Origin: Deltaproteobacteria bacterium
GTDB lineage: Bacteria; Desulfobacterota; Desulfarculia; Desulfarculales; Desulfarculaceae
DNA: 61,010 nucleotides
Reading direction: 5' to 3'
Assembly: GCA_020444205.1 (NCBI GenBank)
Contig: JAHLLJ010000008.1
Coordinates: 1 to 61,010, forward strand
Shown here: positions 18,258 to 51,947 of the stretch, one piece after another
Position numbering within the stretch: position 1 is the first letter of the stretch
Layout of the letters: each line of letters begins with the position of its first letter
The notes under the pieces: generated by a model
Seen by the model: the letters and a program-made list of their open reading frames with translations, nothing else
What the model was told of the DNA's origin: nothing
Databases searched by the model: none
Position numbers and translations under genes: made by a program

Positions 18258-18539
18258 ATGGAAATTGAAGTCGTACGCATTGCCGTGTGCGAAGACATCT
18301 TGCCCAGTCGAATGAAGATTCCTTATGAAGGTCTGCCTCAGGTCGGTTTATTTTTGGAATATCTGGTCCAACAGTACGGCCCCCGATTACGGGAGGCAAT
18401 TTGGGAGGCGGATCAATTGAGCCAAAGTTTGGTCGTCCTGCTAAATGGAAAGAACCTGCGCAGCTTGCCGCGCGGTCTGGAGACCGAACTGTGCCACGGG
18501 GATAGCCTGGTGATTTCGATCCCCTTGATGGGTGGCTAA
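18258..18539 (+). CDS. MoaD/ThiS-like beta-grasp protein, cluster A
   Basis: A 93-residue protein ending in MGG, the exposed Gly-Gly of sulfur-carrier proteins of the MoaD/ThiS/AorE type. Also typical: LVVLLNGKNLRSLPRGLETELCHGDSLVISIPL. The ATG at 18258 fits the family better than a TTG at 18243. The stop directly abuts the AOR start (TAAATG). MoaD-like proteins beside AOR genes are thought to supply sulfur for the molybdopterin of the tungsten cofactor; that role is inferred from context. Confidence 0.85.
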   Translation: MEIEVVRIAVCEDILPSRMKIPYEGLPQVGLFLEYLVQQYGPRLREAIWEADQLSQSLVVLLNGKNLRSLPRGLETELCHGDSLVISIPLMGG

Positions 18540-20387
18540 ATGTATAGAGGATATACGGGAAAAATTCTGAAGGTGGATTTGAGCACCGGGGATGTCCGCT
18601 TCTGGGCCTGGCCGCCCTCATGGCAAGACCAATACATGGGCGGCCGTGGCCTGGGCGCCAGGTTGATGCTGGATTCGGCCGCCTCCGATGTCAGCCCTTT
18701 GGAGCCCGCCAATCTACTCTATTTTCTGACCGGTCCCATCACGGGCACTCTTTTGCCCGGAGCCTCCAAGTTCGTGGTTGTCACCAAGTCTCCGGCTTCC
18801 GGAGGATTCTGCGACTCCTATTCCAGCGGGCGCTTCGCGTTGGAACTCAAATACGCAGGCTTAGACGGCATGGCGGTCACCGGCAAGGCAGAGGGACCGA
18901 GCATCTTGGTCATCAACAACCAATCGGTCAGGCTGGTGCCCGCAGTAGAGTTCTGGGGATCGGACACCTTGTCGACGGAAAGACGGCTAAAAGAGCTTTA
19001 TGGCCAGGACTCCGGGGTGGTCTGCATCGGACCGGCGGGCGAGAACCTGGTCCGGTTCGCCTCCATAAACAGCGACTATTACCGGCAGGCCGCCCGTGGC
19101 GGAGTCGGGGCTGTGATGGGTTCCAAGAACCTGAAGGCCATCGTCGTGCGGGGGAACATGGGGGTTGGATGTGCCGATCCGGCCGGGGTGATGGAACTAG
19201 TGCTGGAGTACCGCGACCTTTTGCTGGCCAGTGAAGTCGCCCGCAAGCGAATGAAATATGGCACGCCCCTTTCCCTGGACATCACCAACGCCTTGGGCAT
19301 GCTGCCAACTCGCAATTTTCAAGAGACTCATTTCCCTGAGGCAGAAGGACAAATCGATGGTGACGGTTTCCTAAAGGACGTGGTTGCCAACCAGTCCTGT
19401 CTGGGGTGCATGGTGGCCTGTTCCAAGATCAGCAAGACGGGCAACGGGCCCTTCGCGGGGGATGTGTTGGAGGGGCCTGAATATGAAGCCTTCGCCTTGT
19501 TGGGTTCCAACCTGGGCGTCAGTGACCGCGCCACAGTCATCAGGGCTAATCTGGTTTGCGACGAGTTGGGTATGGACGTGATATCTGCGGGTGGCGTCAT
19601 AGGTTTCTATTTTGAGTGCCTTAAAAAAGGGCTGGTGGACACTGGCCCCGATGAGGACCCAGAAACCGGCTTCGGAAACGGCGAGGCCATGCTCAACCTA
19701 CTGAAACTCATCGCCCATAAGCGCGGGGTGGGAAAGATACTGGCCGAGGGCGTGTCCGGCGCGGCCGAGGTGTTTGGAAGCCCGACAAAGCTTTTGGCCC
19801 ACCACGTCAAGGGCCTGGAACTGCCCGGCTATGATCCTCGCGGGGGCTACGGCGTTGCCCTGTCCTACGCGGTTTGCGCTCGAGGCGGCTGCCACCGGAG
19901 GGCTTGGCCACCCCGGATCGAGTTGCTCAAAAACATTCCAGCCGACACCAGCGACGGCAAGGCCGCAATGGTCAAGGAGATGTCGGACGAAAACAACGTC
20001 TTCCATTCCCTGCTGGCCTGCGATTTCCCCTTCAAGTTGGCTGGACTGGGGATGGGGCATTGCCGGAGATATCTGAAAGCGGTCACTGGCCAGGATTACT
20101 CGGAGGAGGATCTGTGGCGGACCGCCGGGCGCATCGAGACCGCCATACGGCTCTACAACCTCGCCCAAGGCCTTGGCAGGGATGATGACACCTTGCCGCC
20201 GCGTTTTTTGAAGGAAAAAGCCCCTTCCGGACCCAATCAAGGCATGGTGATACCGGCCCGATCGCTGGATGAAATGCTTGATGAATACTACGAACTCCGA
20301 GGCTGGGACAGCAAAGGAATTCCCAGGGCCGAAACCCTTGCGGCCCTTAAGCTAGATGATTACGGCTCTTTTGCGGTCTCAGGATGA
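18540..20387 (+). CDS. Aldehyde:ferredoxin oxidoreductase-family tungstoenzyme, cluster A
   Basis: A 615-residue AOR-family protein. Motifs: N-terminal GGRGLGARLML, the YSSGRFALELKYAGLDG segment, the pterin-binding GVGAVMGSKNLKAIVVRG, the [4Fe-4S] ligands CLGCMVAC (about 291-298) plus a late Cys in LLACDFPF (about 496), and a CARGGCHRRAWP motif shared with its cluster B paralogue. Family members oxidise aldehydes to acids with ferredoxin as acceptor, or in the BamB branch reduce aromatic rings. Which applies here cannot be told. It overlaps the ferredoxin gene by four bases, so both proteins likely form a complex. Confidence 0.93.
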   Translation: MYRGYTGKILKVDLSTGDVRFWAWPPSWQDQYMGGRGLGARLMLDSAASDVSPLEPANLLYFLTGPITGTLLPGASKFVVVTKSPASGGFCDSYSSGRFALELKYAGLDGMAVTGKAEGPSILVINNQSVRLVPAVEFWGSDTLSTERRLKELYGQDSGVVCIGPAGENLVRFASINSDYYRQAARGGVGAVMGSKNLKAIVVRGNMGVGCADPAGVMELVLEYRDLLLASEVARKRMKYGTPLSLDITNALGMLPTRNFQETHFPEAEGQIDGDGFLKDVVANQSCLGCMVACSKISKTGNGPFAGDVLEGPEYEAFALLGSNLGVSDRATVIRANLVCDELGMDVISAGGVIGFYFECLKKGLVDTGPDEDPETGFGNGEAMLNLLKLIAHKRGVGKILAEGVSGAAEVFGSPTKLLAHHVKGLELPGYDPRGGYGVALSYAVCARGGCHRRAWPPRIELLKNIPADTSDGKAAMVKEMSDENNVFHSLLACDFPFKLAGLGMGHCRRYLKAVTGQDYSEEDLWRTAGRIETAIRLYNLAQGLGRDDDTLPPRFLKEKAPSGPNQGMVIPARSLDEMLDEYYELRGWDSKGIPRAETLAALKLDDYGSFAVSG

Positions 20388-20797
20388 AGGAAGCAACCAG
20401 TGTGACCAAGCTTTTGGTAAAAAGCAGTCGTTGCGTACGCTGCAGGGCATGTGAACTAGCCTGCTCGTTGCGCCAATGCGGCGAGTTCAACTTAAAACGC
20501 AGCGCCATCAAGGCACCGCTCGAGCCCCTTTCGAGAGAAAAGGTGGCCGTCTGCCGCCAGTGTGCCCGGCCAGCGTGCGTCCAAGCTTGTCCCGAAGGGG
20601 CTCTGAGCCAGGGGACCCTCGTGGTGTTGCTTGACAGGGATCTTTGTACGGGCTGCCGGGAATGCGTGCTTGCCTGCCCGTTGGGAGCTATTTTCGTGGA
20701 CGAAACAGATGGCCTGCCGCGCAAGTGCGACCTTTGCGGTGGGCAGCCTCTTTGCGCTCAGGTGTGTGCAAAGCAAGCCTTGGTGGTTATTGAATAA
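20384..20797 (+). CDS. Four-cluster [4Fe-4S] ferredoxin (AorA/CooF-like), cluster A
   Basis: A 137-residue electron carrier with sixteen cysteines in four groups: CVRCRACELAC, CRQCARPACVQAC, CTGCRECVLAC and CDLCGGQPLCAQVC. This spacing matches the polyferredoxin subunit of multi-subunit AORs and CooF-like proteins. It overlaps the AOR stop (ATGA) and very probably takes electrons from it. Confidence 0.92.
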   Translation: MKEATSVTKLLVKSSRCVRCRACELACSLRQCGEFNLKRSAIKAPLEPLSREKVAVCRQCARPACVQACPEGALSQGTLVVLLDRDLCTGCRECVLACPLGAIFVDETDGLPRKCDLCGGQPLCAQVCAKQALVVIE

Positions 20798-20902
20798 TGC
20801 TCCAGTTTCTGGCCCGCAAGGGCAGCGTCGAACTTGGACAGTTTTTTGATTTCCAGATTTGGGGAGCCCTCTTGGCTCCGCCGATCAAAAGGAGGACAGT
20901 GT

Positions 20903-21757
20903 ATGTGGGGTGATAAAGGTCGTTGCGCGGTGGCCTTGGGTTTCGATCTAGATGTGGAAACGCTTTGGCTTTCTCGGGGTCTCACCACTCCCAGCCCCCT
21001 GTCACGGGGGAAATATGGCGCCTATGTGAGCATGCCCCGTATTCTCAATTTCCTAGCAAAGAGAAACATCCCCGCTACCTTCTTCATCCCTGGCTGGGTA
21101 GCGGACTTATACAGGCCGTTGGTCAAGGAGATAATCGAAGCCGGGCATGAAGTGGCACATCACGGTTGGTTACACGATGACCCAAACTCCATGCCCATAG
21201 AGCAGGAGCGGGAAGAATTTATCAGGGGTGTTGAAGTCCTCCGGGAGTTGGGCGCCAACCCACGGGGGTATCGTTCGCCGGCATTTGACTTGGGGCCCAA
21301 TACGCTCAATCTACTCAAAGAGTTTGATTACTTGTATGACACCAGCATGATGGCTCATGAGACCCCATATTACATCGTCGATAATGGCGAGAATTCAGGG
21401 GTGATAGAGCTTCCGGTTTGTTGGGAGTTGGACGACGCTCCTTTCTATCTTTTCGCCTTCAAACCTGCTTATCGTCAGGGTCTGCAGGACCCTGATTCGG
21501 TCGTTAAGGTATGGCAGGCCGAGTTCAATTACGCATACAGGGAAAGCGGTTTCTATCTTTTGACCTTGCACCCGCAGCTCACTGGAAGGGGCTATCGGCT
21601 CGATGCCCTGGGAAGAGTGCTGGATTACATCGAAAAACATCCACAGGTGTGGTTTGCAACCCACGAGGATATAGCCAAGGCCTACAACGAAGTCGTCGAT
21701 CCCAAAAACAAATTGAAAATCGAACTGGCGCCTGGTTGGCACGATCCCGCCTTTTAG
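20903..21757 (+). CDS. Polysaccharide deacetylase-fold hydrolase (PuuE/PgdA-like)
   Basis: A 284-residue NodB-type protein. The start at 20903 is set by GGAGGACAG; an upstream start at 20834 would add 23 unlikely residues. Motifs: GFDLDVE (catalytic and metal Asp, about 15), GHEVAHHGWLHDD (metal His pair, about 83-95), YRSPAFDLG (about 130). Cytoplasmic members without signal peptide, such as PuuE allantoinases and cyclic-imidase-like enzymes, cut C-N bonds in small molecules rather than polysaccharides, which fits this neighbourhood better. Exact substrate unknown. Confidence 0.85.
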   Translation: MWGDKGRCAVALGFDLDVETLWLSRGLTTPSPLSRGKYGAYVSMPRILNFLAKRNIPATFFIPGWVADLYRPLVKEIIEAGHEVAHHGWLHDDPNSMPIEQEREEFIRGVEVLRELGANPRGYRSPAFDLGPNTLNLLKEFDYLYDTSMMAHETPYYIVDNGENSGVIELPVCWELDDAPFYLFAFKPAYRQGLQDPDSVVKVWQAEFNYAYRESGFYLLTLHPQLTGRGYRLDALGRVLDYIEKHPQVWFATHEDIAKAYNEVVDPKNKLKIELAPGWHDPAF

Positions 21758-21780
21758 CCTTGAGTCCGAAAGAGAGAAAC

Positions 21781-22431
21781 ATGGACCCTCAATCGACCGC
21801 TTTAGTTGTAGTGGACATGGTCCGTTCCCATTTGGACATGGATATAGGCCACCTCCCATTGGCGCCAGAAGACGCCAAAAGGGTGCTGAAAAACGTGGCC
21901 GAAACCGTCATACCGGTTTTCCGCAAACACGGGCGCCCAATAATATTCATTCAAACCTATAACCGCATTGACCATGGCCGTAACGGGACCTTCGCCATGG
22001 CCAACCCCTTTTGGAACTACCAAATGGAAAACTCCAGCGTGCCTGGTGTGGGGCGAAAGCGGACTAGCAAGGCGGTGGAAGGATCCCCGGTCATCGAGCT
22101 CATGCCGCCGCTTGAGGCAGGGCCCCAGGATTACATAGTGGTCAAAAGGCGCTACTCTCCGTTTCTCAATACGGACATGGAATCCATCATCCAGGTACTT
22201 GGGCTCAAGAGCCTGGTAGTCGTGGGTATTAATACCAACAATTGCGTGTTGTGCACCTCGTTCGAGGCCTTCAATCGCGATTTAGAGGTCATTGTGGCTG
22301 AGGATTGCTGCGCCAGCATGAACGGCTCCGAATACCATGATGCAGCAATAATGATTATTAAAACTGCTTTAGGCTGGGTCATTGGTTCCGAGCAGATTGA
22401 CGGAATCCTGTCAGGCCGCGAGTCGTTATAA
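21781..22431 (+). CDS. Isochorismatase-family cysteine hydrolase, cluster A
   Basis: A 216-residue hydrolase starting at ATG 21781 (ribosome-binding GAAAGAGAG). The catalytic triad of the family is visible: Asp in VVVDMVRSH (about 12), Lys in IVVKRRYSPF (about 122) and Cys in GINTNNCVL (about 156), with the cis-peptide-like VVGINT before it. Relatives cleave amides and carbamoyl amides such as N-carbamoylsarcosine, ureidoacrylate or maleamate. A paralogue sits in cluster B. Confidence 0.92.
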   Translation: MDPQSTALVVVDMVRSHLDMDIGHLPLAPEDAKRVLKNVAETVIPVFRKHGRPIIFIQTYNRIDHGRNGTFAMANPFWNYQMENSSVPGVGRKRTSKAVEGSPVIELMPPLEAGPQDYIVVKRRYSPFLNTDMESIIQVLGLKSLVVVGINTNNCVLCTSFEAFNRDLEVIVAEDCCASMNGSEYHDAAIMIIKTALGWVIGSEQIDGILSGRESL

Positions 22432-22446
22432 CTGGAGGAATTTGTA

Positions 22447-23409
22447 ATGGCAATTGATTTGCACAGCCACTTGATCCCGCAAATCTTGCTGCAATCGGAA
22501 AAGTGGGGTCTGACATACGAGGAAGACAGCGAGGGTGTAGGTACTGTCTTAGCTTGGGGACTCGCGGTGGCGCCTGTGGGGCCGAATCTTTTTTCGCCCG
22601 ATTTGCAATTGGCCGAGATGGACAGGGATGGCTTGGAGAAAAAACTCATTGCACTGCCTCCCTTCTTGTTCGGTTATCACCGAGACAAGGAATGGGCAGT
22701 ATCCTGGTCCCGGGCTTCCAACGATGCCTTGGCCGCAGTAACACGCGGCTTCCCTCATAAATTCATTCCGTTTGGAAGCGTCGCCCTACAGGACCCGGAG
22801 ACGGCGAGTGAGGAGATGCGACGTTGTCTGTTGGAACTGGGCTTCCCGGGTTTGACTATTGGCACCAACGTGGGTGGGCTGGATTTGGACCATCAGAACT
22901 TCACAGAATTCTTCGAGACAGCAAACCGATTGGGTTGCCTAATACTTATTCACCCCAACAATGTGATGGCCGGGGAGCGGCTGTCTTCTTATTATCTGCG
23001 CAACTTGCTGGGGAATGCCTTTGAAACCACCACTTGCCTATCTCGGCTTCTCTCATCCGGTTTTTTTGAAAAACACCCCAAGATTAAGATCTGCTTTTCT
23101 CATGGCGGCGGAGCCTTTCCGTACCTGCTGGGGCGCCTGCAAAAAGGGGGGGAAGTGAGGCCGGAACTGGGCGGCGGAGAAGCATTTGACCTGCCCCCTA
23201 ACGTTTATTTCGACACTGTGGTGCACGATCAGCAGACCTTGCAGTTCTTGGCTGGAAAAGTTGGGATGCGAAAAGTGGTTTTGGGCAGCGACTACCCCTT
23301 TGACATGGGTCAACCTGACCCGGCTGGTTTTGTCGCGCAAGCCATGCCCAAGGATCAATGTCAGGCAATCCTGAAAAACAATGCAGAGGAATTCCTGCAA
23401 GGGGAATGA
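22447..23409 (+). CDS. Amidohydrolase-2 (ACMSD-like decarboxylase/hydrolase), cluster A
   Basis: A 320-residue TIM-barrel protein. Metal and catalytic motifs: HSHL (residues 6-9), LILIHPNN (His about 174), FSHGGGAFPYLLGR (His about 219) and LGSDYPFDMGQ (Asp about 283). This pattern is that of aminocarboxymuconate-semialdehyde decarboxylase relatives, which decarboxylate or hydrate (hetero)aromatic and unsaturated acids. It follows the isochorismatase gene by 15 bases and is paralogous to the gene at 50943. Confidence 0.9.
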   Translation: MAIDLHSHLIPQILLQSEKWGLTYEEDSEGVGTVLAWGLAVAPVGPNLFSPDLQLAEMDRDGLEKKLIALPPFLFGYHRDKEWAVSWSRASNDALAAVTRGFPHKFIPFGSVALQDPETASEEMRRCLLELGFPGLTIGTNVGGLDLDHQNFTEFFETANRLGCLILIHPNNVMAGERLSSYYLRNLLGNAFETTTCLSRLLSSGFFEKHPKIKICFSHGGGAFPYLLGRLQKGGEVRPELGGGEAFDLPPNVYFDTVVHDQQTLQFLAGKVGMRKVVLGSDYPFDMGQPDPAGFVAQAMPKDQCQAILKNNAEEFLQGE

Positions 23410-23467
23410 GCTTGGTCCATTTAAACGGCGGCGCGTCTGCCGCCGGTTTGTCCGGGAGGTGCCAAGG

Positions 23468-24766
23468 ATGACTGTGCAGCAACTATGGGAGCGCCGGGAC
23501 GCGGCAATTCCCAGGGGCGTGGGCAACGTGACCCCGCTGGTGTTGGCCAAGGCTGAGGGCGCCTTGGTTTGGGACCCTGACGGCAACCAGTACATCGACT
23601 TCGTTGGTGGCATCGGGGTTAACAATGTGGGACACCGCCACCCCAAAGTTGTGGCGGCCATCAGACGGCAACTGGATGAGTACCTACACGGCTGCTTCCA
23701 CGTATCCATCTATGAGCCCTACGTGGCCCTGGCCGAAAAGATCAACGCCATCGCGCCCTGCCCGGGCCCCAAGAAGACCATGCTGGCCAATTCCGGGGCC
23801 GAGGCGGTGGAGAACGCGGTCAAGATCGCCCGCTACGCCACCGGCAAGCCGGGTGTGATCTGCTTTGAGGGCGGCTTCCACGGCCGCACCCTGCTGGGCA
23901 TGGCCCTGACCAGCAAGGTGCTGCCTTATAAGTACAAGCTTGGGGCTCACCTGCAGGCCATCTACCGGGCGCAGTACCCTTACTGCTACCGCTGCCCTTG
24001 GGGCAAGGAGTACCCTTCTTGCGGGGTGTCCTGCGGCCGGGAGTACTTTGAGGACTACTTCAAATACAACACCCACCCGGACGAGGTGGCAGCCATAATC
24101 ATTGAGCCCATCCTGGGCGAGGGTGGCTTCATCGCACCTCCGTTTGAGTATATGCATCAGCTACGCCAGCTATGCGAAGAGCACGGCATCGTGCTGATTG
24201 CCGACGAGGTCCAGAGCGGCATCGGCCGCACCGGCAAGATGTTCGCTCTGGAGCACTTTGGGGTGCAGGCGGACATCGTGACCATGGCCAAGAGCCTGGG
24301 CGGGGGCATGCCTCTGAGCGCCATCTGCGGTAAGGCAGCCTTGATGGACAGCGTGCATCCCGGCGGGCTGGGCGGCACCTACGGCGGCAACCCGGTGGCC
24401 TGCGCCGCGGCTTTGGCCGTGCTGGAGGTGATCGAACAAGAGGACATCCTGGCCCGGGCCGAGGATCTAGGGATCAATGCCAGGCGGACCCTGCTGGCCC
24501 TGCAGGACCGTTTCCCGGCTATCGGCCAGATGCGGGGCCTGGGGCCCATGCTGGCTATTGAACTGGTGAGCGACCCGGTTTCCAAACAGCCTGCGCCCGA
24601 ACTGGCCAAGCAGCTAACCGCCTATTGCCACGCCCACGGCCTGCTGGTGCTGGACTGTGGAACCTTGGGCAACAACGTGCGCACCCTCATGCCCCTGGTC
24701 ATCACCGACGAACAACTCCAGCAGGGCATGGACATCCTGGCAGAGGGCATGGAACAACTTGGATAA
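23468..24766 (+). CDS. Class III aminotransferase (4-aminobutyrate-type)
   Basis: A 432-residue PLP enzyme. Features: GGIGVNNVGHRHP, ANSGAEAVENAVKIAR, GGFHGRT, LIADEVQSGIGRTGKMFA and the PLP lysine in TMAKSLGGGMPLSA. It transfers an amino group from an omega-amino acid to 2-oxoglutarate or pyruvate, making a semialdehyde, a plausible substrate for the AOR. The codon usage is clearly more GC-rich (CTG, GGC, GCC) than the genes before it, hinting at separate ancestry. The start at 23468 has AGGTGCCAAGG upstream. Confidence 0.92.
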   Translation: MTVQQLWERRDAAIPRGVGNVTPLVLAKAEGALVWDPDGNQYIDFVGGIGVNNVGHRHPKVVAAIRRQLDEYLHGCFHVSIYEPYVALAEKINAIAPCPGPKKTMLANSGAEAVENAVKIARYATGKPGVICFEGGFHGRTLLGMALTSKVLPYKYKLGAHLQAIYRAQYPYCYRCPWGKEYPSCGVSCGREYFEDYFKYNTHPDEVAAIIIEPILGEGGFIAPPFEYMHQLRQLCEEHGIVLIADEVQSGIGRTGKMFALEHFGVQADIVTMAKSLGGGMPLSAICGKAALMDSVHPGGLGGTYGGNPVACAAALAVLEVIEQEDILARAEDLGINARRTLLALQDRFPAIGQMRGLGPMLAIELVSDPVSKQPAPELAKQLTAYCHAHGLLVLDCGTLGNNVRTLMPLVITDEQLQQGMDILAEGMEQLG

Positions 24767-31587: not shown

Positions 31588-31677
31588 GTATCCATCTCCT
31601 TTGTCACATGGGTTCTATATGAACCAAGGTTTCCTAGTAACGAAACACTACCCGCCGCAAATCACCGATGGGTGAGG

Positions 31678-33521: not shown

Positions 33522-33536
33522 GCTGCCTTACACCAT

Positions 33537-37056: not shown

Positions 37057-37062
37057 CTGTGT

Positions 37063-43683: not shown

Positions 43684-43789
43684 ACGAAACGACCCGTATC
43701 CTGCCGTGTTGGCGAGGATCGGAAAATTCTAATGGTTGGTTGGAGTTACATCCCAAAATTTACAACCAGCCCCCACCCGGGAGAGGATT

Positions 43790-44140
43790 ATGTCAATTCT
43801 GAAAAACGCTGAGTTGCCCGTCGAGCAGATGTACCCCAAAGTTCAGCGCAAAGAGTTAATCGGCAAGAACATGGGCGCTACCGGGCTGAGCATGGGTGAG
43901 ATAACCATAGAGCCAGGCGGAGAGATCCCTTTGCACTATCACAGCATGGAGGACTGCATTTTATTGCGCCAAGGTAGCGGAGAGGTCCACATCGAGGGAA
44001 AGGTGCACAAAGTGACCGCCCCTATGACGTTGCTTATCGAGCCTAATTTGCAGCACAAGGTTGTTAACACGGGCAACGAAGACATTCGCATCATTTACGG
44101 TTTTCCTGGAGTGGACGTCGATCGTCATCTGGTGGGCTGA
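43790..44140 (+). CDS. Single-domain cupin protein
   Basis: A 116-residue cupin from ATG 43790 (GAGAGGA upstream). Cupin motif 1 is visible as IPLHYHSMEDCILLRQGSGEVHIEG and motif 2 as LIEPNLQHKVVNTGNEDIRIIYGF, giving HxH, E and H metal ligands. Role unknown; it lies 12 bases before the AOR gene and may be an isomerase, a small-molecule binder or an AOR accessory. Confidence 0.88.
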   Translation: MSILKNAELPVEQMYPKVQRKELIGKNMGATGLSMGEITIEPGGEIPLHYHSMEDCILLRQGSGEVHIEGKVHKVTAPMTLLIEPNLQHKVVNTGNEDIRIIYGFPGVDVDRHLVG

Positions 44141-44152
44141 AAGGATATTAAC

Positions 44153-45994
44153 ATGATTCCGGGTTTCAAGGGCAAACTACTCCAGATCAACCTGACCGAT
44201 CAGACATCGAGTGTCATTGATCTGCCGGATGAAATACTGAAAAAATATGTCGGGGGACGCGCACTTGGGGCCAAGTTGTATTGGGACCTCCTTCCAGTAG
44301 AGGCAGGTCCCTTGGATCCGGAAAACCTATTTATGGTTCTTACCGGCCCGCTCACTGGCACCATGGCCCCTTGCGCCTGTAAGCACGTGATAATCACCCG
44401 GTCCCCCGCCACGGGAGGCTGGACGGACTCCTATTCCAGCGGACGCTTTGCCCCGGAGTTGAAGTATGCCGGCTACGACGGCCTGATCATAACCGGCAAG
44501 GCCGCTAAGCCGTCCTACCTGCTCATCGAGGATCACGACGTTCGCTTTGGGGACGCCGGCCATCTCTGGGGCAAGGGCTCTTTTCATGCTGAAAATTTTT
44601 TGAAAGAGCATTTTCACCCTGATGCCGGCTATCTGACCATAGGCCAAGCCGGGGAAAATCTCCTTAAATGCGCCTGCGTTGGGAGCGAGTTCTTCCGCAA
44701 GGCCGGCCGGGGCGGCGTGGGCGCGGTGATGGGCTCCAAGAATTTGAAGTCCATCGGCGTCAAGGGTAGTGGCGGGGTAGAGTGCGCCGACCTGCAGGGC
44801 ATATACGACCTCATCAAAAAGCATTATGCTGTGTACCTTGAAAGCCCTATCGGCACGGCCCGCCATCGTTTCGGCACGCCTTTGACTCTCAACATCACCA
44901 ATCCCGCAGGTATGCTGCCAACGCGCAACTTCTCCGACGGCCAGTTCGACCGGGCCATCGGTCGGCTGGACAAAGATGGAGTGGCCGATCACACCATAGC
45001 CGACCGAGCCTGTTTCGGCTGCTTCGTGGCCTGCAGCAAGCTGACTTATGTCAAGGATGGCGTGTTCGCAGGGACCAAGCTGGAGGGGCCAGAGTACGAG
45101 AGCATAGGGCTGTTGGGATCCAACCTGGAAATCGACTATCTTCCGGCGGTGATCAAGTCCAACTACCTTTGCGACGATCTAGGCATGGATACCATCAGCG
45201 CAGGCGGTGCCATCGGTTTCGCCATGGAGTGCTACGAAAAAGGGCTGATTACCAAAGAGGACACCGGCGGCATCGAATTGAATTTCGGCAACTACATGGC
45301 CGCGGTGGAAGTGTTGGAACTGATGGCTTTACGCAAGGGCTTCGGAGCTTTTTTGGCCAAAGGCGTGCGAGATATGGCCCGCGAGTTGGGACCGGAAGCC
45401 GAGGCATTCGCGATCCACAGCAAGGGGCTGGAGTTCCCCGCCTACGACCCCAGGGCCGGCTGGGGCAGCCTGGTCACTTACTCCACCACCGCGCGAGGTG
45501 GTTGCCACCGCCGGGCTTGGCCACCCCTCAAGGAGGTTCTTGGTGGGGTAGATCCCTTCACCACCGTGAACAAGGACCACGTGGTGGTGGACATGATGAA
45601 CGAGAACTGCATCATGCACTCCATATTGGTCTGCGATTTCCCGGGCAAGTTCATTCCCTTGTCAAACCAGGACTGGGCAGATTATTTCAACGCGGTTACC
45701 GGCCTGGGCTACCAAGAGGCCGACTTGGTTGAAATGGCCGAGATGGCCGAGACCTTGATTCGCAAGATCAACATGCGCCACGGCTTCACCTCCGCGGACG
45801 ATGATTTGCCCAAGCGGATTCTCAAGGAAGCCCTTTTCTCCGGCCCGCCGGCGGGCAAGGTGGTCGGGCGCGAGCGCTTTTTGCAAATGCGCGGGGATTA
45901 CTACCGGCTGCGAGGCTGGGACGAGAAGGGGGTCCCCACCCTCGAGACGTGGAACCGCTTCAATTTTGAGCAGGACCCAACGATCCATATGTGA
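44153..45994 (+). CDS. Aldehyde:ferredoxin oxidoreductase-family tungstoenzyme, cluster B
   Basis: A 613-residue AOR-family protein, clearly paralogous to the cluster A enzyme. Motifs: GGRALGAKLYWD, PCACKHVIITRSPATGGWTDSYSSGRFAPELKYAG (shared pattern), GVGAVMGSKNLKSIGVKG, cluster ligands CFGCFVAC (about 287-294) and a late Cys in ILVCDFPG, and TARGGCHRRAWP. It has an AAAGGA ribosome-binding site and is followed after three bases by the MoaD-like gene. Confidence 0.93.
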   Translation: MIPGFKGKLLQINLTDQTSSVIDLPDEILKKYVGGRALGAKLYWDLLPVEAGPLDPENLFMVLTGPLTGTMAPCACKHVIITRSPATGGWTDSYSSGRFAPELKYAGYDGLIITGKAAKPSYLLIEDHDVRFGDAGHLWGKGSFHAENFLKEHFHPDAGYLTIGQAGENLLKCACVGSEFFRKAGRGGVGAVMGSKNLKSIGVKGSGGVECADLQGIYDLIKKHYAVYLESPIGTARHRFGTPLTLNITNPAGMLPTRNFSDGQFDRAIGRLDKDGVADHTIADRACFGCFVACSKLTYVKDGVFAGTKLEGPEYESIGLLGSNLEIDYLPAVIKSNYLCDDLGMDTISAGGAIGFAMECYEKGLITKEDTGGIELNFGNYMAAVEVLELMALRKGFGAFLAKGVRDMARELGPEAEAFAIHSKGLEFPAYDPRAGWGSLVTYSTTARGGCHRRAWPPLKEVLGGVDPFTTVNKDHVVVDMMNENCIMHSILVCDFPGKFIPLSNQDWADYFNAVTGLGYQEADLVEMAEMAETLIRKINMRHGFTSADDDLPKRILKEALFSGPPAGKVVGRERFLQMRGDYYRLRGWDEKGVPTLETWNRFNFEQDPTIHM

Positions 45995-45997: not shown

Positions 45998-46279
45998 ATG
46001 GGAGTGATGATTAAAACGGTCGGCGCGCTTTTAAATGGTTTGCCGCAGGGTTTCGACCAGTTGGAAAGCGCCGGCATGAGTGTTTCAGAGGCCTTGGACC
46101 AATTAGTGGCCAGGCACGGCGAGAAGTTGGCCTCGGAGTTGTACAAGGACGGGGAACTTAGACCAGGCCTAGCTTTTTTGGTAAATGGCCGCAACGTGCT
46201 CAGCCTGCCACGTAAGTTTGCCACCCAGCTCGACCACGGAGATGAGCTGATCATAGCCACTTTGATGGCAGGGGGCTAA
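45998..46279 (+). CDS. MoaD/ThiS-like beta-grasp protein, cluster B
   Basis: A 93-residue protein ending in MAGG with LAFLVNGRNVLSLPRKFATQLDHGDELIIATL, the same pattern as the cluster A protein at 18258 but placed after rather than before the AOR. Likely a sulfur carrier for the pterin cofactor of the neighbouring tungstoenzyme. Confidence 0.85.
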   Translation: MGVMIKTVGALLNGLPQGFDQLESAGMSVSEALDQLVARHGEKLASELYKDGELRPGLAFLVNGRNVLSLPRKFATQLDHGDELIIATLMAGG

Positions 46280-46294
46280 AAACAGAGCGAAACT

Positions 46295-46855
46295 ATGAGC
46301 AATCGAGTCCTCACTATAAAAGCCGAAAATTGCACTGGCTGTCGCCTATGCCAGTTGGCCTGCTCCTCTTCCAAAGAGGGCATGTTCATACCGGATCATG
46401 CCCGCGTAAAGGTGGTGCACGACGCCTTGGAGGGCTGGTCCCGCCCCACGATCTGCCTGCAGTGCGAAGAGCCCATGTGCCTCAAGGTTTGTCCCGTGGA
46501 GGCCATCAGTCATACTCATACCGCGGCGGGCGACCACGTGGTGCTGGTGGACCAGGACAAGTGTGTCGCCTGCCAGCGTTGCGTGGCGGCTTGCCCCTTT
46601 GGGGCCATGGACTTTTTCAAAAAGAGCTTGGCCACCAAGTGCGACCTGTGTGGGGGTGACCCCATGTGCGTGCAGTTTTGTTTTTACGACTGTCTGCATT
46701 TCGAGGAATTAAGCGAAGAGCAAGAAGGCAAGCGGCGCAAGCGGATGGAAGGGCTATACCGCAAGGCCTGCAAGGATATCGGGCAAAGGGAGTTGTATCA
46801 GCGGCGAGAGGCCATTTCTCTGGACGTGGCCAAGAAGACCAGGCTGGACGGCTAA
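46295..46855 (+). CDS. Four-cluster [4Fe-4S] ferredoxin (AorA/CooF-like), cluster B
   Basis: A 186-residue protein with sixteen cluster cysteines in CTGCRLCQLAC, CLQCEEPMCLKVC, CVACQRCVAAC and CDLCGGDPMCVQFC, plus a charged C-terminal helix (about 140-186) that the cluster A protein lacks. Probable electron acceptor of the AOR encoded 300 bases upstream. Confidence 0.92.
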   Translation: MSNRVLTIKAENCTGCRLCQLACSSSKEGMFIPDHARVKVVHDALEGWSRPTICLQCEEPMCLKVCPVEAISHTHTAAGDHVVLVDQDKCVACQRCVAACPFGAMDFFKKSLATKCDLCGGDPMCVQFCFYDCLHFEELSEEQEGKRRKRMEGLYRKACKDIGQRELYQRREAISLDVAKKTRLDG

Positions 46856-46946
46856 GGGATCGCAAGCCCAGGGGAATGTTTTATTTCCTCCTTGACGCCG
46901 GCTGCGTATCTAAACCTCAACACTCAAGGACAAGAGGAAATCTATA

Positions 46947-47663
46947 ATGAGTTCTATCGAGATTGTTGATCGTTCGGATATGGTCGCAAAGCTCAATTCC
47001 ATGTTGACCATAGACCCCGGGAGCACTGCCATCGTGGCGGTGGACATGCACCGGGGACACCTGGACCCCGTCGTGGCCACCATGCCCGCCGCCCCCGAGG
47101 ACTGCCAGAGCGTCATCGCCCACACCCAGGATTTGTTCGACTGGGCCCGCGCCCGCAAGATCCCTATCATCCACGTCATCTTGATTCAACGGGACATTCC
47201 CGGCTATGGGGCGGAAGGGCTGAACCTTAAGTTCTGGAAGGCGCTGCATGAGATCGCCGATGAACAAAACCGCCTCACTCCCGGGCGCAAAAGCACGGCG
47301 GCCGATCATAACTTGGAAGGCATGCCCGGTACCCAAATCATCCCCGAACTTCTGGGCCCCGGTGACTATGTGATCAACAACAAGAAACGCCTGGACTGCT
47401 TTTACGGTACCGACCTGGAAATTCTGCTTCGTGTACTGGGTACTGAAACGGTGGTTCTCACCGGCATCAACACCAACACCTGCGTATTAAACACCGCTTT
47501 CACGGCCTGCAACCGCGACTTCCAGGTGGTGGTCATTTCCGATTGCGTGGCCAGTATGTACGGCAAGGATTTGCATGTCTTGGGGCTGGAGAACGTCAAG
47601 CGGTGCTTGGGATACGTGCTGAGCGTTGAAGAATTCAAGCAGAAGGCTCAACAGGCCTCTTGA
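46947..47663 (+). CDS. Isochorismatase-family cysteine hydrolase, cluster B
   Basis: A 238-residue hydrolase with the triad Asp in VAVDMHRGH (about 32), Lys in VINNKKRLDCF (about 145) and Cys in GINTNTCVL (about 178). Paralogous to the enzyme at 21781, with the same AFTACNRD/FEAFNRD-type segment after the Cys. Expected reaction: hydrolysis of an amide, ureide or imine bond. GAGGAAA precedes the start. Confidence 0.92.
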   Translation: MSSIEIVDRSDMVAKLNSMLTIDPGSTAIVAVDMHRGHLDPVVATMPAAPEDCQSVIAHTQDLFDWARARKIPIIHVILIQRDIPGYGAEGLNLKFWKALHEIADEQNRLTPGRKSTAADHNLEGMPGTQIIPELLGPGDYVINNKKRLDCFYGTDLEILLRVLGTETVVLTGINTNTCVLNTAFTACNRDFQVVVISDCVASMYGKDLHVLGLENVKRCLGYVLSVEEFKQKAQQAS

Positions 47664-47795
47664 AGGTAAGAATTTACTTTTGCAGACAACTTTCAAACTT
47701 CATTCCGGACCCCTTTCGCTACCGGCGGGGCCGCATGTCAATAGAGGTGTGAGGCAGCCAATTTACCCCCAACAATATCTTCATGAGAAACTGAC

Positions 47796-49109
47796 ATGGA
47801 TCCCCTCTACTTAGGTTTTATAGGTGTTTTTGCCCTTGTACTCCTGATCATCATCAGGGTGCCGATAGCCTTCGCATTGGCCGGAGTGGGAGTGCTGGGC
47901 TTAACTTTTATGATGGGCATTTCCCATGTAATTTCTTTTGTTCCTCATCAAATTTATTCACGCACCGCTGACTTTACCTTCACCGCAGTGCCCCTGTTCC
48001 TGCTAATGGGATACTTCGCTTATTATGCTGGCATAACCGATGAGGCCTACGATGTGGCCAGAGCCTGGGTGGGCCGGGTACCAGGTGGTTTGGGCCTGGC
48101 CACGGTAGCCGGTTGCGCCCTGTTCGCTGCCAGTGCTGGTTCCAGCCTTGGCGAGTGTGCCGCCATGAGCAAGATCGCGGTCCCAGAGATGCGCAAGAGC
48201 GGCTATAGTGCCAAATTGGCCACCGGTCTGGTGGCTTCAGCTGGAGGCCTGGCTGTGGTCATACCGCCAAGCGTGATTATGGTCATTTATGGGGTGCTTA
48301 CCGAGCAGTCGGTGGGCAAGCTTCTCGTGGCCGGTATCCTACCGGGCGCACTTTATTTCGCTGTATTTGCTGTAGCAATTATGCTTTTCGCAATGATCTG
48401 GCCCAATATGGCGCCCCTGGAGAGCACTCGAATTTCTTCTTGGAGCCAGCGCTTTCGCAGTTTGGGCAAGATTTGGGAAATCTCTGCCCTGTTTGCGATA
48501 GCCATAGGCGGTATCTATGCCGGCTTGGTGACTCCCACAGAAGGTGCAGCATTGGGAGCATTTGCAGCGATTTTGCTGACAGCTATAAAGAGACGTTTAT
48601 CCTGGTCCATTTTCAAGCTTGCAGTGTTAGAGACAGTGTCGGCCTCCGCAGTAATTTTCATGCTCTTTGTCTCGGCTGATGTCTTCACCATGTTCCTAAA
48701 CTTGAGCGGTGTCCTGCAGAATACTACCAATTGGCTACTGGACCTTAACCTAAGCAGGGACCTTCTTTTCTGGGCGCTAGTTCTGCTTTTCGTGATAATG
48801 GGATCTTTTTTAGACGCCATCAGTATTATGCTTGTTACGCTTCCTCTCGTGATGCCCATTATTGAGGCTCAGAATCTAAGCCCCGTCTGGTTCGGAGTAA
48901 TCATGTGCATGATCGTAGAGATCGGTTGCATCACTCCCCCTATGGGTCTCAACGTGTACGTGATGAAGGCGGCAATGGGCAAGTCGATAGAGTTAAACGA
49001 CATATTTATGGGAGCCTTGCCCTTCGTGGTTCTTGAACTGATTATCGTGGGCATATTGTTTTACTTCCCAGAAATAGCCCTTTGGCTGCCAAGTTTAATG
49101 GTCAAATAA
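47796..49109 (+). CDS. TRAP transporter large permease (DctM family), cluster B
   Basis: A 437-residue permease with about twelve membrane segments: RVPIAFALAGVGVLGL, TFTAVPLFLLMGYFAYYAGITDEAYD, AASAGSSLGECAAMSKIAVPEM, VIPPSVIMVIYGVLTEQSVGKLLVAG, VTPTEGAALGAFAA and ITPPMGLNVYVMK. Gene order here is M-Q-P, the reverse of cluster A. Confidence 0.93.
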   Translation: MDPLYLGFIGVFALVLLIIIRVPIAFALAGVGVLGLTFMMGISHVISFVPHQIYSRTADFTFTAVPLFLLMGYFAYYAGITDEAYDVARAWVGRVPGGLGLATVAGCALFAASAGSSLGECAAMSKIAVPEMRKSGYSAKLATGLVASAGGLAVVIPPSVIMVIYGVLTEQSVGKLLVAGILPGALYFAVFAVAIMLFAMIWPNMAPLESTRISSWSQRFRSLGKIWEISALFAIAIGGIYAGLVTPTEGAALGAFAAILLTAIKRRLSWSIFKLAVLETVSASAVIFMLFVSADVFTMFLNLSGVLQNTTNWLLDLNLSRDLLFWALVLLFVIMGSFLDAISIMLVTLPLVMPIIEAQNLSPVWFGVIMCMIVEIGCITPPMGLNVYVMKAAMGKSIELNDIFMGALPFVVLELIIVGILFYFPEIALWLPSLMVK

Positions 49110-49163
49110 CATGATTAATAATAAAGATAACTTGAGGACCCATTCGCTGGAGAGATTGTTCTG

Positions 49164-49694
49164 ATGCTTGGCTTAGTCAACAGGGCTATTAGGTTAATGG
49201 ACAAAATTTCTCTGTGGATGATTGGTTTTGCTGCGCTTTCCCTTGTCCTGATCATGGTAGACGAGGTGATCAACGCCATAGGACGCAAATTCGGCGTCCC
49301 CTTACCTTGCGCCTTAGAACTTGCGGTCTCATTGATGATCTCAAGCATATTTTTGGCGGTTTCCCGCGTGGCTTCGATAGAGGAACATACTTTCGTGACC
49401 ATGACCACTCGCATGTTGCCACGTCCCATAAAAAGAGGGATGGACTGTTTTGGCTACCTTTTGGGCGTGATCGTCTTCGGAATCATATCAGTAGGGGCCT
49501 GGGAAATTGCCTATGATTCATTGCTTAAAATGGAAATGCAAATTGGGGTTTTTCGTTTTCCAATATGGCCTTTTCGCATAATTTTTGCTTTGGGAGTTAG
49601 CCTTTTGTCCTTGCAACTATTGGCAAACGCAGTCCGCGCGGCCATACAGATAGCACAAGGCAATTATCCTGAGGAGACAGTAGGAGGCATTTAA
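49164..49694 (+). CDS. TRAP transporter small permease (DctQ family), cluster B
   Basis: A 176-residue protein with four hydrophobic segments, a GRKFGVPLPCALELAVSLMISSIFLAVSRVASIEEHTFV segment at the DctQ signature position and a late FPIWPFRIIFALG. The ATG follows the large permease by 54 bases. Confidence 0.9.
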   Translation: MLGLVNRAIRLMDKISLWMIGFAALSLVLIMVDEVINAIGRKFGVPLPCALELAVSLMISSIFLAVSRVASIEEHTFVTMTTRMLPRPIKRGMDCFGYLLGVIVFGIISVGAWEIAYDSLLKMEMQIGVFRFPIWPFRIIFALGVSLLSLQLLANAVRAAIQIAQGNYPEETVGGI

Positions 49695-49756
49695 CTAATC
49701 AAGATTGTGTCTGTCACCTTAACATTTACAACCATATCGTTAACGGAGGAGGAGTC

Positions 49757-50833
49757 ATGGCTAACAAATTGAGGAATCTTTTCTGCGCGGCTATCGGCTT
49801 GATGGTGCTATTTGCAACGATGGTGCCCCTTAAGGCAGATGCCAAAACTATCACCCTGAAGTTTGTATCACCTGTACCACCAAAATCTTGGCTGGGCAAA
49901 CAGCAAAAGTGGTGGGCTCAGCAACTGGAAAAACGTACCAATGGCGAAGTCAAGGTTCAATTTTTCTGGATGAGTTCCTTGGTGAAGTGGAAAGATGCCT
50001 TACACGGCGTGGCTTCGGGCGTGACTGATATAGCTTGCCCTTGCTCCACATACCATCCCAGCGAGTATCCGTTGTATGTGGTGTTGGATATGCCTTACAA
50101 CGGCACGGATTACTGGTCTGCCATGATGGCTACGATTGATACCGTGGAGAATCAGCCGGACCTAAAGGCAGAATTCAAGAAGAACGGAGTCAAACTCCTG
50201 ATGAACTGGATGAGCGGAAACTTCCTCCCCGGAACGGCCAAATTGGTGGACGGCATCAAGGGCATGAAGGGCAAGACTTTCCGTAGCTTCGGCGGTGCCC
50301 GTATAAAATGGATGGAGAACTTGGGCATAAACCCTGTTTTCATGAGCTACGCGGACATTTACGAGGCATTGGATAGGGGTACCATTGATGGTGTGGAATT
50401 AGTGTTAATGCTTAGCGACGCCTTCAAGCACTACGAAGTAGTCAAAGATTTGTATTTGGCGAAGACTGGTTTCGTAGTCACCTGCGCGGCGGCAATAAAC
50501 CTCAAGGTTTGGAATAGCCTGCCCAAAAATGTGCAGGATGTGATGATGAAACTTAGAGCGGACTATGCCGCCCACTACGCTGAGCAACTAATGGCGTTGG
50601 AATCAAATATCATCAAGAAGTGGAAGGAAAAGTACGGCGTTCGGATTCAGCCCCTTTCGCCTTCGGATGCCAAACTCTCCGAAGAAGCTGGGTTGAAAGC
50701 GCAAGAGTACTTCCTGAAAAAGCAGGAATCTACTGGTCATCCAGCACGTAAAGTGTGGGACTACTTCCAAAAGCGCCAAGAGTTCTATGAAAACCAAGTC
50801 AAGCAGCAGGGCTATCCTTGGCAAAAAAAGTAA
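49757..50833 (+). CDS. TRAP transporter substrate-binding protein (DctP family), cluster B
   Basis: A 358-residue binding protein with signal peptide (cleavage after ADA near 28). Family signs: KFVSPVPPKSWLGKQQKWWAQQLEKRTNGEVKVQFFW, MSYADIYEALDRGTIDGVE. The conserved carboxylate-binding Arg region reads GKTFRSFGGARIKWME. Strong GGAGGAGG ribosome-binding site; a terminator follows. Confidence 0.92.
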   Translation: MANKLRNLFCAAIGLMVLFATMVPLKADAKTITLKFVSPVPPKSWLGKQQKWWAQQLEKRTNGEVKVQFFWMSSLVKWKDALHGVASGVTDIACPCSTYHPSEYPLYVVLDMPYNGTDYWSAMMATIDTVENQPDLKAEFKKNGVKLLMNWMSGNFLPGTAKLVDGIKGMKGKTFRSFGGARIKWMENLGINPVFMSYADIYEALDRGTIDGVELVLMLSDAFKHYEVVKDLYLAKTGFVVTCAAAINLKVWNSLPKNVQDVMMKLRADYAAHYAEQLMALESNIIKKWKEKYGVRIQPLSPSDAKLSEEAGLKAQEYFLKKQESTGHPARKVWDYFQKRQEFYENQVKQQGYPWQKK

Positions 50834-50854
50834 CTTAATGTGGTTTTGAACTCG

Positions 50855-50888
50855 AGATGGTCCGGCGGCCTCAGCCGGACCATCTTTT
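50855..50888 (+). terminator. Intrinsic terminator after cluster B TRAP genes
   Basis: A perfect 12-base stem AGATGGTCCGGC/GCCGGACCATCT with a 7-base loop followed by TTTT, 22 bases after the binding-protein stop. Confidence 0.9.
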
Positions 50889-50942
50889 CTGAAGGAGCGG
50901 ATCGAATGATCCGTTAGAACATCAACAGGGAGATGGGCAGCT

Positions 50943-51947
50943 TTGATTTTCGATGCACACTGGCACCTCATTTGTCCCCAAGCCGCACAACGCTGCGCTG
51001 CGATCGACCCGGTAAAGGCCGGGGATTACGCCTGCGGGGTTAATGAGCAGACCGCCCGCATCAACCAAAAGCGTAGTGTGGTGTGGTCGCGCAAGATGAG
51101 CAACCCCGATGAGCAGTTGCAAGATATGGAAAAGGCCGGCATTGACATTGCAATGCTGCAGCCCCCGCCCATTGGCTATTACTACTGGACCGAGCCACAG
51201 TTGGGCAGCGGATTGTCCCGCATGGTCAACGAAAACACGGCTGGTTTCATAGCCAAATACCCCGAGCGTTTTTATGGCTGGGCCACGGTTCCCTTGCAGG
51301 ACCCAATAATGGCCGCAGCCGAGGTCCGCTTCGCGGTTGAGGAACTAAAGCTCAGCGGCATCACCCTGACCTCCAATGTAAATGGGCACGGTTTGGATGA
51401 GGAGAGGTTCGACCCCTTTTGGGAAGCAGTTCAGGATCTGGACGTACCCCTGTTCATTCATCCCGGCAATCCCCCCGGGGCCGAGCGGCTGGCCAACTAT
51501 TACTTGACCAATTTTTTGGGCTTTCCCGTGGAGACCACCTTGGCGGCGGTTTCCATGGTCTTTGGGGGAGTCTTCGACCGCTTTCCGCGCCTGAAGCTTT
51601 GCCTCGCCCACGCTGGGGGGGTGCTACCTTTCCTGCTGGGGCGTTTTGAGCACGGCCAAGCTCAACGTCCCGAGGCCCGCGAGAAGTGCCGACACCCCTT
51701 TAGCCATTATTTGAAAAACATCTATGTGGATACAGTCACCTTCAGCGTCCCCACCCTGCGCTATGTGATTTCCATGCTGCCGCCCGGGCATGTTTTTTTT
51801 GGCACCGACTACCCCTTTGACATGGCCGACATGGAGGGAGTTGCCCTCGTCAAGGAGGCCGTGGGGGATGATTCGGCGCTGAGCGAGGAGATATTCTACG
51901 GGGTCATGGCCAAACTTGTGGGGCTGCCCCCACGCGTCGGCGTATAG
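50943..51947 (+). CDS. Amidohydrolase-2 (ACMSD-like), cluster B
   Basis: A 334-residue TIM-barrel enzyme, paralogue of the gene at 22447. Motifs: DAHWHL (HxH, about 6-8), LFIHPGNPPGAERLANYYL (His about 176), LAHAGGVLPFLLGRF (His about 222) and FGTDYPFDMADM (Asp about 288). The only in-frame start that includes the HxH strand is a TTG at 50943, with AGGGAG about nine bases upstream. Predicted decarboxylase or hydrolase of an unsaturated or cyclic acid. Confidence 0.9.
   Translation: MIFDAHWHLICPQAAQRCAAIDPVKAGDYACGVNEQTARINQKRSVVWSRKMSNPDEQLQDMEKAGIDIAMLQPPPIGYYYWTEPQLGSGLSRMVNENTAGFIAKYPERFYGWATVPLQDPIMAAAEVRFAVEELKLSGITLTSNVNGHGLDEERFDPFWEAVQDLDVPLFIHPGNPPGAERLANYYLTNFLGFPVETTLAAVSMVFGGVFDRFPRLKLCLAHAGGVLPFLLGRFEHGQAQRPEAREKCRHPFSHYLKNIYVDTVTFSVPTLRYVISMLPPGHVFFGTDYPFDMADMEGVALVKEAVGDDSALSEEIFYGVMAKLVGLPPRVGV

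Follow-up and report, generated by a model that had tools for sequence, protein, structure and literature searches.

The question raised by this locus is why an enzyme of the aldehyde oxidoreductase (AOR) family should be encoded, twice over, among genes for amidases and for a decarboxylase-like amidohydrolase. The locus lies in a contig of a Deltaproteobacteria bacterium (assembly GCA_020444205.1, contig JAHLLJ010000008.1, positions 1–61,010 of the forward strand; these 61,010 nt are called the window below). The initial annotation described two clusters, A and B, with six part types in common, and all six are found in both: an AOR, a MoaD/ThiS-like protein, a four-cluster ferredoxin, an isochorismatase-fold cysteine amidohydrolase (ISO), an amidohydrolase of the ACMSD type (AH2) and a TRAP transporter. 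The regulators differ, as had been said: RpiR in A (PF01418/PF01380) and GntR in B (PF00392/PF07729). Two details need adjustment. The limits proposed for A, 18.3–23.4 kb, take in the other parts, with the TRAP genes lying upstream (13963–16916), and the "16-Cys" ferredoxins do have 16 Cys in four cluster motifs, in totals of 17 (A) and 18 (B). From the co-occurrence, a single pathway had been deduced. Counts of neighbouring genes support a recurring core of AOR and AH2 and restrict the six-part set, which was not found to be widespread, to the genus of the window; the AOR–AH2 association is real and phylogenetically coherent, and the six-part claim is narrowed to one genus. Tentatively, we read A and B as a pair of diverged copies of one catabolic module, which would break down imported acids of the amide or cyclic-ureide type without oxygen; at its core would stand a single clade of ferredoxin-linked AORs of the tungsten type. 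This reading may well be right, without being one that we would call probable; the substrate, the metal, the order of the steps and the oxygen-free life of the host are parts of it that we infer.

A tree built from 114 AOR rows places A and B with six other sequences in a single clade of eight (SH-aLRT 99). This clade is recovered with 100/99 in a careful tree limited to 47 of these rows; in the latter, A is outermost (96/81) and B stands beside the sequence of a same-genus genome, G002. The members are A, B, L095 (G002), L102 (G118), L103 (G201), L129 (G793, from another family of the window's phylum), L108 (G661, found in the phylum search around Desulfofundulus) and L009 (a Clostridiales metagenome-assembled genome, MAG). 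The proposal of a common system had been tied to the two AORs not falling in separate clades, and both fall in this one. The positions of A and B in the tree rule out a recent duplication within the genome. The two AORs are 46% identical, and local alignments give 37% for ISO, 34% for AH2, 40% for the ferredoxin and 39% for MoaD.

The same 114 rows (8 of the clade and 106 others) serve for the neighbour counts, which cover genes within 10 kb of the AOR. Short duplicate loci (L001–L008, L096–L101, L105–L107 and L111–L128) and frames under 400 amino acids were left out, the latter cut removing a partial AOR of the window's own genome at G000:C284. The AOR of G1097 (49% identical to B, on a 4.4 kb contig, L161) stands outside the trees and counts, and the contig scan for AORs is a sample, the best 80 of 520 rows. 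AH2 is present near the AOR in 6/8 clade rows and in 0/106 others, and also in none of the 59 non-clade rows having at least 5 kb on both sides. Fisher's test gives p ~1e-8, ignoring the relatedness of the rows; on the 114-row tree, the AH2 label needs a minimum of three changes. Chance co-location of AOR and AH2 is ruled out by these counts. Counted by lineage, AORs with AH2 come to about five (A, B with G002, L108, L009 and L129, in two phyla), since three of the rows are the two clusters of one genome and a same-genus relative. As a control, the window's own genome has eight AOR places, and the six outside the window are without ISO or AH2 in the scanned stretches (10–20 kb each; one AOR is partial, at a contig end).

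The other neighbours follow various patterns. MoaD is near the AOR in 7/8 clade rows and 31/106 others, and the four-cluster ferredoxin in 5/8 and 62/106. The trio of AOR, ferredoxin and MoaD is an ordinary, known set, since aorABC is described with MoaD-like aorD and aorE in Aromatoleum aromaticum (PMC6365974) and Azospirillum has the trio too. On plasmid AZO_p2 of Azospirillum lipoferum 4B (L148, 9525–18719), genes for complex-I-like subunits and for the large subunit of a nickel-dependent hydrogenase come after those for ferredoxin, AOR and a MoaD-like protein; it is possible that this AOR is coupled to a membrane hydrogenase. TRAP DctM is nearby in 4/8 clade rows (2/106 others), M24 in 2/8 (0/106), aldehyde dehydrogenase (ALDH) in 1/8 (5/106) and a protein that we take to be of the Gfo/Idh type in 3/8 (2/106). 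Besides AOR and AH2, L129 carries a PuuE-like protein (TIGR03212 136.1 bits, under 424.6), an NCS2 nucleobase permease and a creatininase-family protein. Separately, a non-clade AOR with its ferredoxin lies among LamB/YcsF and creatininase-family genes in L104 (G327, 5714–16633), which hints at AORs in cyclic-amide clusters.

At the catalytic histidine, seven of the eight clade rows have the motif [GA]CHRRAWPP, and the eighth has CHRRSSPV. The initial annotation had noted CHRRAWP in both AORs of the window; it is also diagnostic of their clade, occurring in 0/106 non-clade rows (one of which has CHRRARPL), so that it can be discarded as a common AOR motif. In PfAOR numbering, Thr243, Glu313, Tyr427, His448 and the four cluster Cys are kept in 8/8 clade rows, the first four being the residues named for most aldehyde-oxidising members of the tungsten oxidoreductases (WOR) (PMC13328260). 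AOR A is over the cut-offs of both AFOR_N and AFOR_C, and AOR B is over that of AFOR_N and aligns with 1aor over 590 residues. In the PDB, AOR A scores 409 bits with 1aor and 183 bits with the putative benzoyl-CoA reductase 4z3w, the weakest of nine matches. With 1aor so far above 4z3w and the residues of aldehyde oxidisers intact, a ring reductase like BamB (class II benzoyl-CoA reductase) is disfavoured for AOR A; of the chemistries proposed before, it is aldehyde oxidation that fits, not ring reduction. Judged from these scores and residues, A and B are probably tungsten-type aldehyde oxidoreductases, the metal being a prediction. In both clusters, a four-[4Fe-4S] small subunit stands beside the large subunit, which fits class II WOR (WorL + WorS; PMC13328260). 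No FAD subunit was recognised among the cluster proteins scanned in A and B, which is consistent with ferredoxin as carrier. Ferredoxin would be the electron carrier of the AOR, and the direction of electron flow is likewise a prediction.

The AOR clade is rare and patchy. Searches by AOR sequence (E <= 1e-140 unless stated) matched 2/40 relatives (E <= 1e-120) and 5/395 genomes of the window's phylum (four in the clade); both counts include the window's own genome. They also matched 1/348 genomes in the phylum of Desulfofundulus and 1/20 in the class of that match, 3/17 in the family of G118 (two in the clade), 5/23 in the class of G201 (with G327 outside the clade and G1097 unplaced) and 1/22 in the order of the Clostridiales MAG. 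At E <= 1e-130, the sample around the Clostridiales MAG gave 14/348, with only G418 and G661 in the clade, that around a Chloroflexota MAG gave 1/301, not in the clade, and a second draw of the window's phylum gave 12/395. The two draws of 348 are largely shared genomes, the second at the laxer threshold. In the second draw of 395, again from the window's phylum, the three closest places share coordinates with G002, G118 and G201, and nine weaker matches have 39–41% identity, one with the coordinates of G327. The total tally of 1931 genomes includes repeats across draws.

For AH2, the best PDB matches are ACMSD chains (210 bits for AH2 A and 181 bits for AH2 B), and the uracil-5-carboxylate decarboxylases are weaker (46 and 97 bits). 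The ACMSD residues His6, His8, His174, His224 and Asp291, which we take to serve the metal site and catalysis, are all kept in AH2 A and B, and so are Arg235 and Arg243. By sequence, the two are ACMSD-type enzymes, not ACMSD. The motif DYPFDM, observed earlier in AH2 A and B, is indeed common to them, and it is unspecific: it is present in a Novosphingobium homologue (L162) without AOR among its annotated neighbours and absent from L129, so that it is ruled out as a signature of AOR-linked amidohydrolases. In L108 (G661, 5841–6979), the last ~50 residues of AH2, including DYPFDM, are in another frame, either a broken gene or an assembly error. In the AH2 tree, the L108 enzyme, which is AOR-linked, falls together with those of Bosea and Agrobacterium (94/96). 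Relatives of AH2 B were matched in 516 plasmid records, and seven of their neighbourhoods were opened, six of them annotated. ALDH comes directly after AH2 in Bosea and Agrobacterium. In the other annotated neighbourhoods, ALDH is beside a second amidohydrolase in one and 4–5 kb off with gabT in another, and none is listed in two. In the unannotated neighbourhood of Halostella, which was scanned, a class III transaminase match adjoins AH2 and no ALDH was found.

Both ISO proteins keep the D-K-C catalytic triad. Together with a Haladaptatus protein, they group apart from RutB (95/94); this protein is listed first for both in a search of 72,556 plasmid records (147 bits with ISO A and 157 with ISO B). 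An identity with RutB is ruled out by the tree and by the TIGR03614 scores (82.7 for A and 52.1 for B, with a cut-off at 377.95). The Haladaptatus ISO cluster contains ALDH, M24, asparaginase, a cyclic-ureide-type amidohydrolase, a PF04909 amidohydrolase weakly like AH2 (52 bits), SDR and an NMT1/THI5 binding protein; no AOR is annotated in its 24.6 kb. The cyclic-ureide-type enzyme scores as dihydroorotase (335 bits), allantoinase (330) and dihydropyrimidinase (305), all under cut-off. It is mainly because of the content of this cluster that we think of cyclic ureides. ISO B was searched in 21 AOR-holding genomes; of two matches, neither has AOR or AH2 in the scanned stretch, and one has a cyclase-family match.

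We propose the following route as the best supported. In cluster A, the TRAP transporter would import the substrate, and the M20 deacylase and the PuuE-like protein would deacylate it or open its ring. ISO would take off an amide or carbamoyl group, and, in A, the GABA-type transaminase would make a semialdehyde. The AOR would oxidise the semialdehyde to the acid, with electrons passing via the four-cluster subunit to ferredoxin, and MoaD would mature the pterin cofactor. AH2 would decarboxylate before or after the AOR step, at which some aerobic relatives of ISO and AH2 may use an aldehyde dehydrogenase. The GABA-type transaminase of A and the methylmalonate-semialdehyde-type ALDH of B, each over its family cut-off, would point to C3–C4 semialdehydes. 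A more specific proposal, possible and on balance doubtful, is that the CHRRAWPP clade serves specifically to break down N-heterocycles or cyclic ureides under anaerobic conditions: it would replace the ALDH partner that an ACMSD-like decarboxylase has in some aerobes and keep the electrons as low-potential ferredoxin, and the carboxylate of a semialdehyde would be bound by the two Arg next to the catalytic His.

Several observations weigh against the reading of A and B as copies of such a module. ISO is within 10 kb in only 3/8 clade rows, those of the window and of one genome of its genus (0/106 others). The four-cluster ferredoxin is absent within 10 kb in L102, L103 and L129, and no AH2 is found in the available stretch of L102 and L103; on one side, L102 breaks off 1.2 kb from the AOR. 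A PuuE-like protein is nearby in 2/8 clade rows (0/106 others) and a class III transaminase in 1/8 (17/106 others), so that the full pathway of A is not conserved. Past CocE, no HDH (histidinol-dehydrogenase-family) or ALDH match is found in G002 (19.6 kb stretch L174 scanned), and neither the GABA-type transaminase nor the ALDH of B is conserved with the module. The AOR residue set is also intact in 88/106 other rows and therefore backs aldehyde chemistry, not this particular pathway. In AH2, Arg47 of ACMSD is Ala in A and Val in B, and none of the six AOR-linked AH2s has Arg there; Trp188 is Tyr in both; these two positions presumably belong to the substrate pocket. The AH2 tree is mostly unresolved, so AH2 has perhaps been recruited more than once. 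Finally, ALDH adjoins AH2 in only 2/7 of the aerobic neighbourhoods opened.

Four other explanations were weighed. In the first, AH2 acts after AOR: the AOR would oxidise a formyl group of a ring or chain to a carboxylate, AH2 would release CO2, and the pair would be a unit for trimming C1 groups. The model is the thymine/5-carboxyuracil route, in which formyl-to-carboxylate oxidation is followed by removal of CO2. AOR chemistry would supply the carboxylate that such a decarboxylase needs, both AH2s have uracil-5-carboxylate decarboxylases among their weaker matches in the PDB, and the HDH-family and SDR dehydrogenases after B could turn an alcohol into the aldehyde. However, ACMSD is the far better match in both cases, the proteins scanned include none recognised as methyl-hydroxylating, and beside the G002 cluster the dehydrogenase tail seen in B was not found; we consider C1 trimming unlikely. 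Alternatively, the AOR could be a general aldehyde scavenger, for detoxification or redox balance, whose neighbours reflect recruitment to degradation islands. The avoidance of toxic aldehydes is the role assumed by the authors for the Aromatoleum AOR (PMC6365974), cluster B has an aldehyde dehydrogenase as well, and the clade neighbours apart from AH2 and MoaD vary. For a scavenger, though, the linkage to AH2 in this clade only and a clade-specific motif beside the catalytic His are unexpected, and we consider this role unlikely. A reverse reaction, with the AOR as carboxylate or ring reductase (BamB-like or acid-reducing), is quite improbable: low-potential donors allow AORs to reduce acids (PMC9295118), but 4z3w is the lowest match of AOR A, and the residues of aldehyde oxidisers are intact, though acid reduction remains compatible with them. 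That the AOR–AH2 linkage is an artefact of few, biased samples is very improbable. Such AORs are rarely found, and three of the eight clade rows come from the window (two) or its genus (one), but L009, L108 and L129 likewise have AH2 near the AOR, and none of the 106 controls does.

Known systems resemble the clusters in parts. AorABCDE of Aromatoleum aromaticum has in one operon a four-cluster small subunit, a tungsten large subunit and MoaD-like genes (PMC6365974), whereas the proteins scanned in A and B include none recognised as the FAD subunit AorC, and the genes are embedded with those for ISO, AH2 and TRAP. The characterised class II WORs named in the 2026 classification, PfASOR and CbGOR, act on sulfonates and glyceraldehyde-3-phosphate (PMC13328260), unlike what is proposed for A and B. 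The main text of that paper, in which WORs are classified from gene neighbourhoods, contains no occurrence of amidohydrolase, isochorismatase or decarboxylase. In the reductive uric acid pathway (PMC12507026), the ring opening, ureido cleavage and amine release are alike, and its M20 enzyme YgeY cleaves a ureido group; in the main text of this paper, 'ferredoxin oxidoreductase' and 'isochorismatase' do not occur.

ACMSD and its aldehyde dehydrogenase partner act in the breakdown of 3-hydroxyanthranilate. The likeness consists of a decarboxylating amidohydrolase fold beside an aldehyde-oxidising enzyme, with the metal-site residues kept in AH2; the differences are an AOR instead of the dehydrogenase and an AH2 without Arg47 and Trp188. 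RutB and the ureido-cleaving isochorismatase-fold amidases have the fold and the D-K-C triad in common with ISO A and B, and the group of these two with the Haladaptatus protein has NTNxCV where E. coli RutB has ATNVCV. The reductive pyrimidine pathway, like that of uric acid, is comparable in how it opens rings, cleaves ureido groups and releases amines. In contrast to both, no ring reductase was recognised among the window proteins scanned, which are part of the reading frames of the window. Searches of open-licence PMC papers with fixed spellings brought up none that links AOR with isochorismatase, with or without amidohydrolase, or with ACMSD, and none that joins isochorismatase, amidohydrolase and aldehyde dehydrogenase in a catabolic gene cluster; the titles and openings of abstracts listed in broader searches show no such link either.

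The genes of the two clusters are listed in Table 1.

Table 1. Genes of clusters A and B in the window, with the basis of each assignment
Feature	Coordinates	Strand	Basis
RpiR-type regulator (HTH_6 + SIS)	10475..11407	+	Pfam PF01418, PF01380
M42-type aminopeptidase-like protein	11511..12614	+	NCBIfam best PRK09961, 187.1 bits, under 412 cut-off
FrsA-like alpha/beta hydrolase	12761..13921	+	Pfam PF06500
TRAP transporter DctP, DctQ, DctM, cluster A	13963..16916	+	Pfam PF03480, PF04290, PF06808
M20 ArgE/DapE-type deacylase	16983..18224	+	TIGR01910, 239.9 bits, over 217.6 cut-off
MoaD/ThiS-like, GG end, cluster A	18243..18539	+	TIGR01687 36.7 bits, ThiS 19 bits, both under cut-off
AOR-family large subunit, AOR A	18540..20387	+	AFOR_N and AFOR_C over cut-off; best PDB 1aor
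Four-cluster ferredoxin, cluster A (17 Cys)	20384..20797	+	Fer4 families; Cys count
Polysaccharide-deacetylase-fold protein, nearest allantoinase PuuE	20834..21757	+	PF01522 over cut-off; TIGR03212 85.4 bits, under 424.6
Isochorismatase-fold cysteine amidohydrolase, ISO A	21781..22431	+	PF00857; D-K-C triad; ATG at 21781
ACMSD-type amidohydrolase, AH2 A	22447..23409	+	PF04909; best PDB an ACMSD chain, 210 bits
Class III aminotransferase, GABA type	23468..24766	+	TIGR00700 537.5 bits, over 506.65, whole frame 23381–24766 scored; likely ATG inside frame
GntR/FCD regulator	42982..43683	+	PF00392, PF07729
Small cupin	43736..44140	+	Weak ectoine-synthase-type match, 23.5 bits, under cut-off; conserved in L095
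AOR-family large subunit, AOR B	44153..45994	+	AFOR_N over cut-off; tree, residues; best PDB 1aor
MoaD/ThiS-like, GG end, cluster B	45998..46279	+	PF02597 30.8 bits, over cut-off
Four-cluster ferredoxin, cluster B (18 Cys)	46295..46855	+	Fer4 families; Cys count
Isochorismatase-fold cysteine amidohydrolase, ISO B	46947..47663	+	PF00857; groups with ISO A and Haladaptatus homologue, 95/94
TRAP transporter DctM, DctQ, DctP, cluster B	47796..50833	+	Pfam
ACMSD-type amidohydrolase, AH2 B	50943..51947	+	PF04909; best PDB ACMSD chains, ~181 bits
CocE/NonD-type alpha/beta hydrolase	51984..53783	+	TIGR00976 237.6 bits, over 66.3; conserved in L095
Cyclase-family (KynB-like) hydrolase, downstream tail of B	53817..54575	+	PF04199
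Histidinol-dehydrogenase-family (HDH) enzyme, downstream tail of B	54627..55898	+	TIGR00069 443.9 bits, over cut-off
Aldehyde dehydrogenase (ALDH), methylmalonate-semialdehyde type, tail of B	55911..57650	+	TIGR01722 527.8 bits, over 448.5

Cluster A is a same-strand run from RpiR (10475) via the TRAP genes to the GABA-type transaminase (24766). From MoaD through AH2, the intergenic gaps are -4 to 36 bp with ISO counted from 21769; with the likely ATG at 21781, the gap before ISO A is 23 bp. The protein nearest to PuuE stays under the score of that allantoinase family (Table 1). The PuuE-like deacetylase and the GABA-type transaminase are extra to A, and the cupin, the CocE-type hydrolase, the cyclase-family hydrolase, the HDH-family enzyme and ALDH are extra to B. 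The G+C content is 0.49–0.52 over 6001–18000 and 0.54–0.62 elsewhere, except at 38–40 and 48–50 kb. An open reading frame at 7379–8467 is presumably transposase-like, and, with the low G+C, it suggests that the left edge of cluster A is DNA of acquired origin. A third cluster of amide type lies on the minus strand at 30427–37857, with formamidase/acetamidase-family and nitrilase-family genes, an ABC transporter of the branched-chain-amino-acid or urea type and an IclR-type regulator (some of these labels being read from the sequence).

Cluster B is a same-strand run as well, from GntR (42982) through AOR, MoaD, ferredoxin, ISO, TRAP and AH2 to ALDH (57650), with intergenic gaps of 3 to 132 bp from GntR through ALDH. 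Same-genus G002 (L095) keeps the run GntR, cupin, AOR, MoaD, ferredoxin, ISO, TRAP, AH2 and CocE, the last shared gene. Because the G002 cluster ends at CocE, with neither HDH nor ALDH beyond, the ALDH of B is outside the conserved unit, and the HDH–ALDH tail was dropped as a part of it. Downstream of cluster B, an HDH-type enzyme, a semialdehyde dehydrogenase and SDR lie at 54627–59027; these genes may resemble those for alcohol oxidation of the sulfopropanediol type. A 111-nt direct repeat, 99% identical, is present at 55838–55948 and 58206–58316. It copies the 3′ end of the HDH-type gene behind a LacI-type HTH, giving a short chimeric frame at 57877–58266, and is due to recombination or to an assembly fault.

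Of the 92 tungsten-oxidoreductase clades in a 2026 classification, only five include an enzyme whose physiological role is defined (PMC13328260). Where a clade has its own sequence signature and an enzyme partner that recurs, a function can be put to the test, namely which semialdehyde is used and whether ferredoxin is the carrier. The clusters of a tungsten-type enzyme with amidases point to an undescribed, oxygen-free breakdown of nitrogen-containing compounds. If this is true, the anaerobic catabolism of amides or N-heterocycles would join tungsten biology, with one step swapped between a dehydrogenase and a ferredoxin-linked enzyme.

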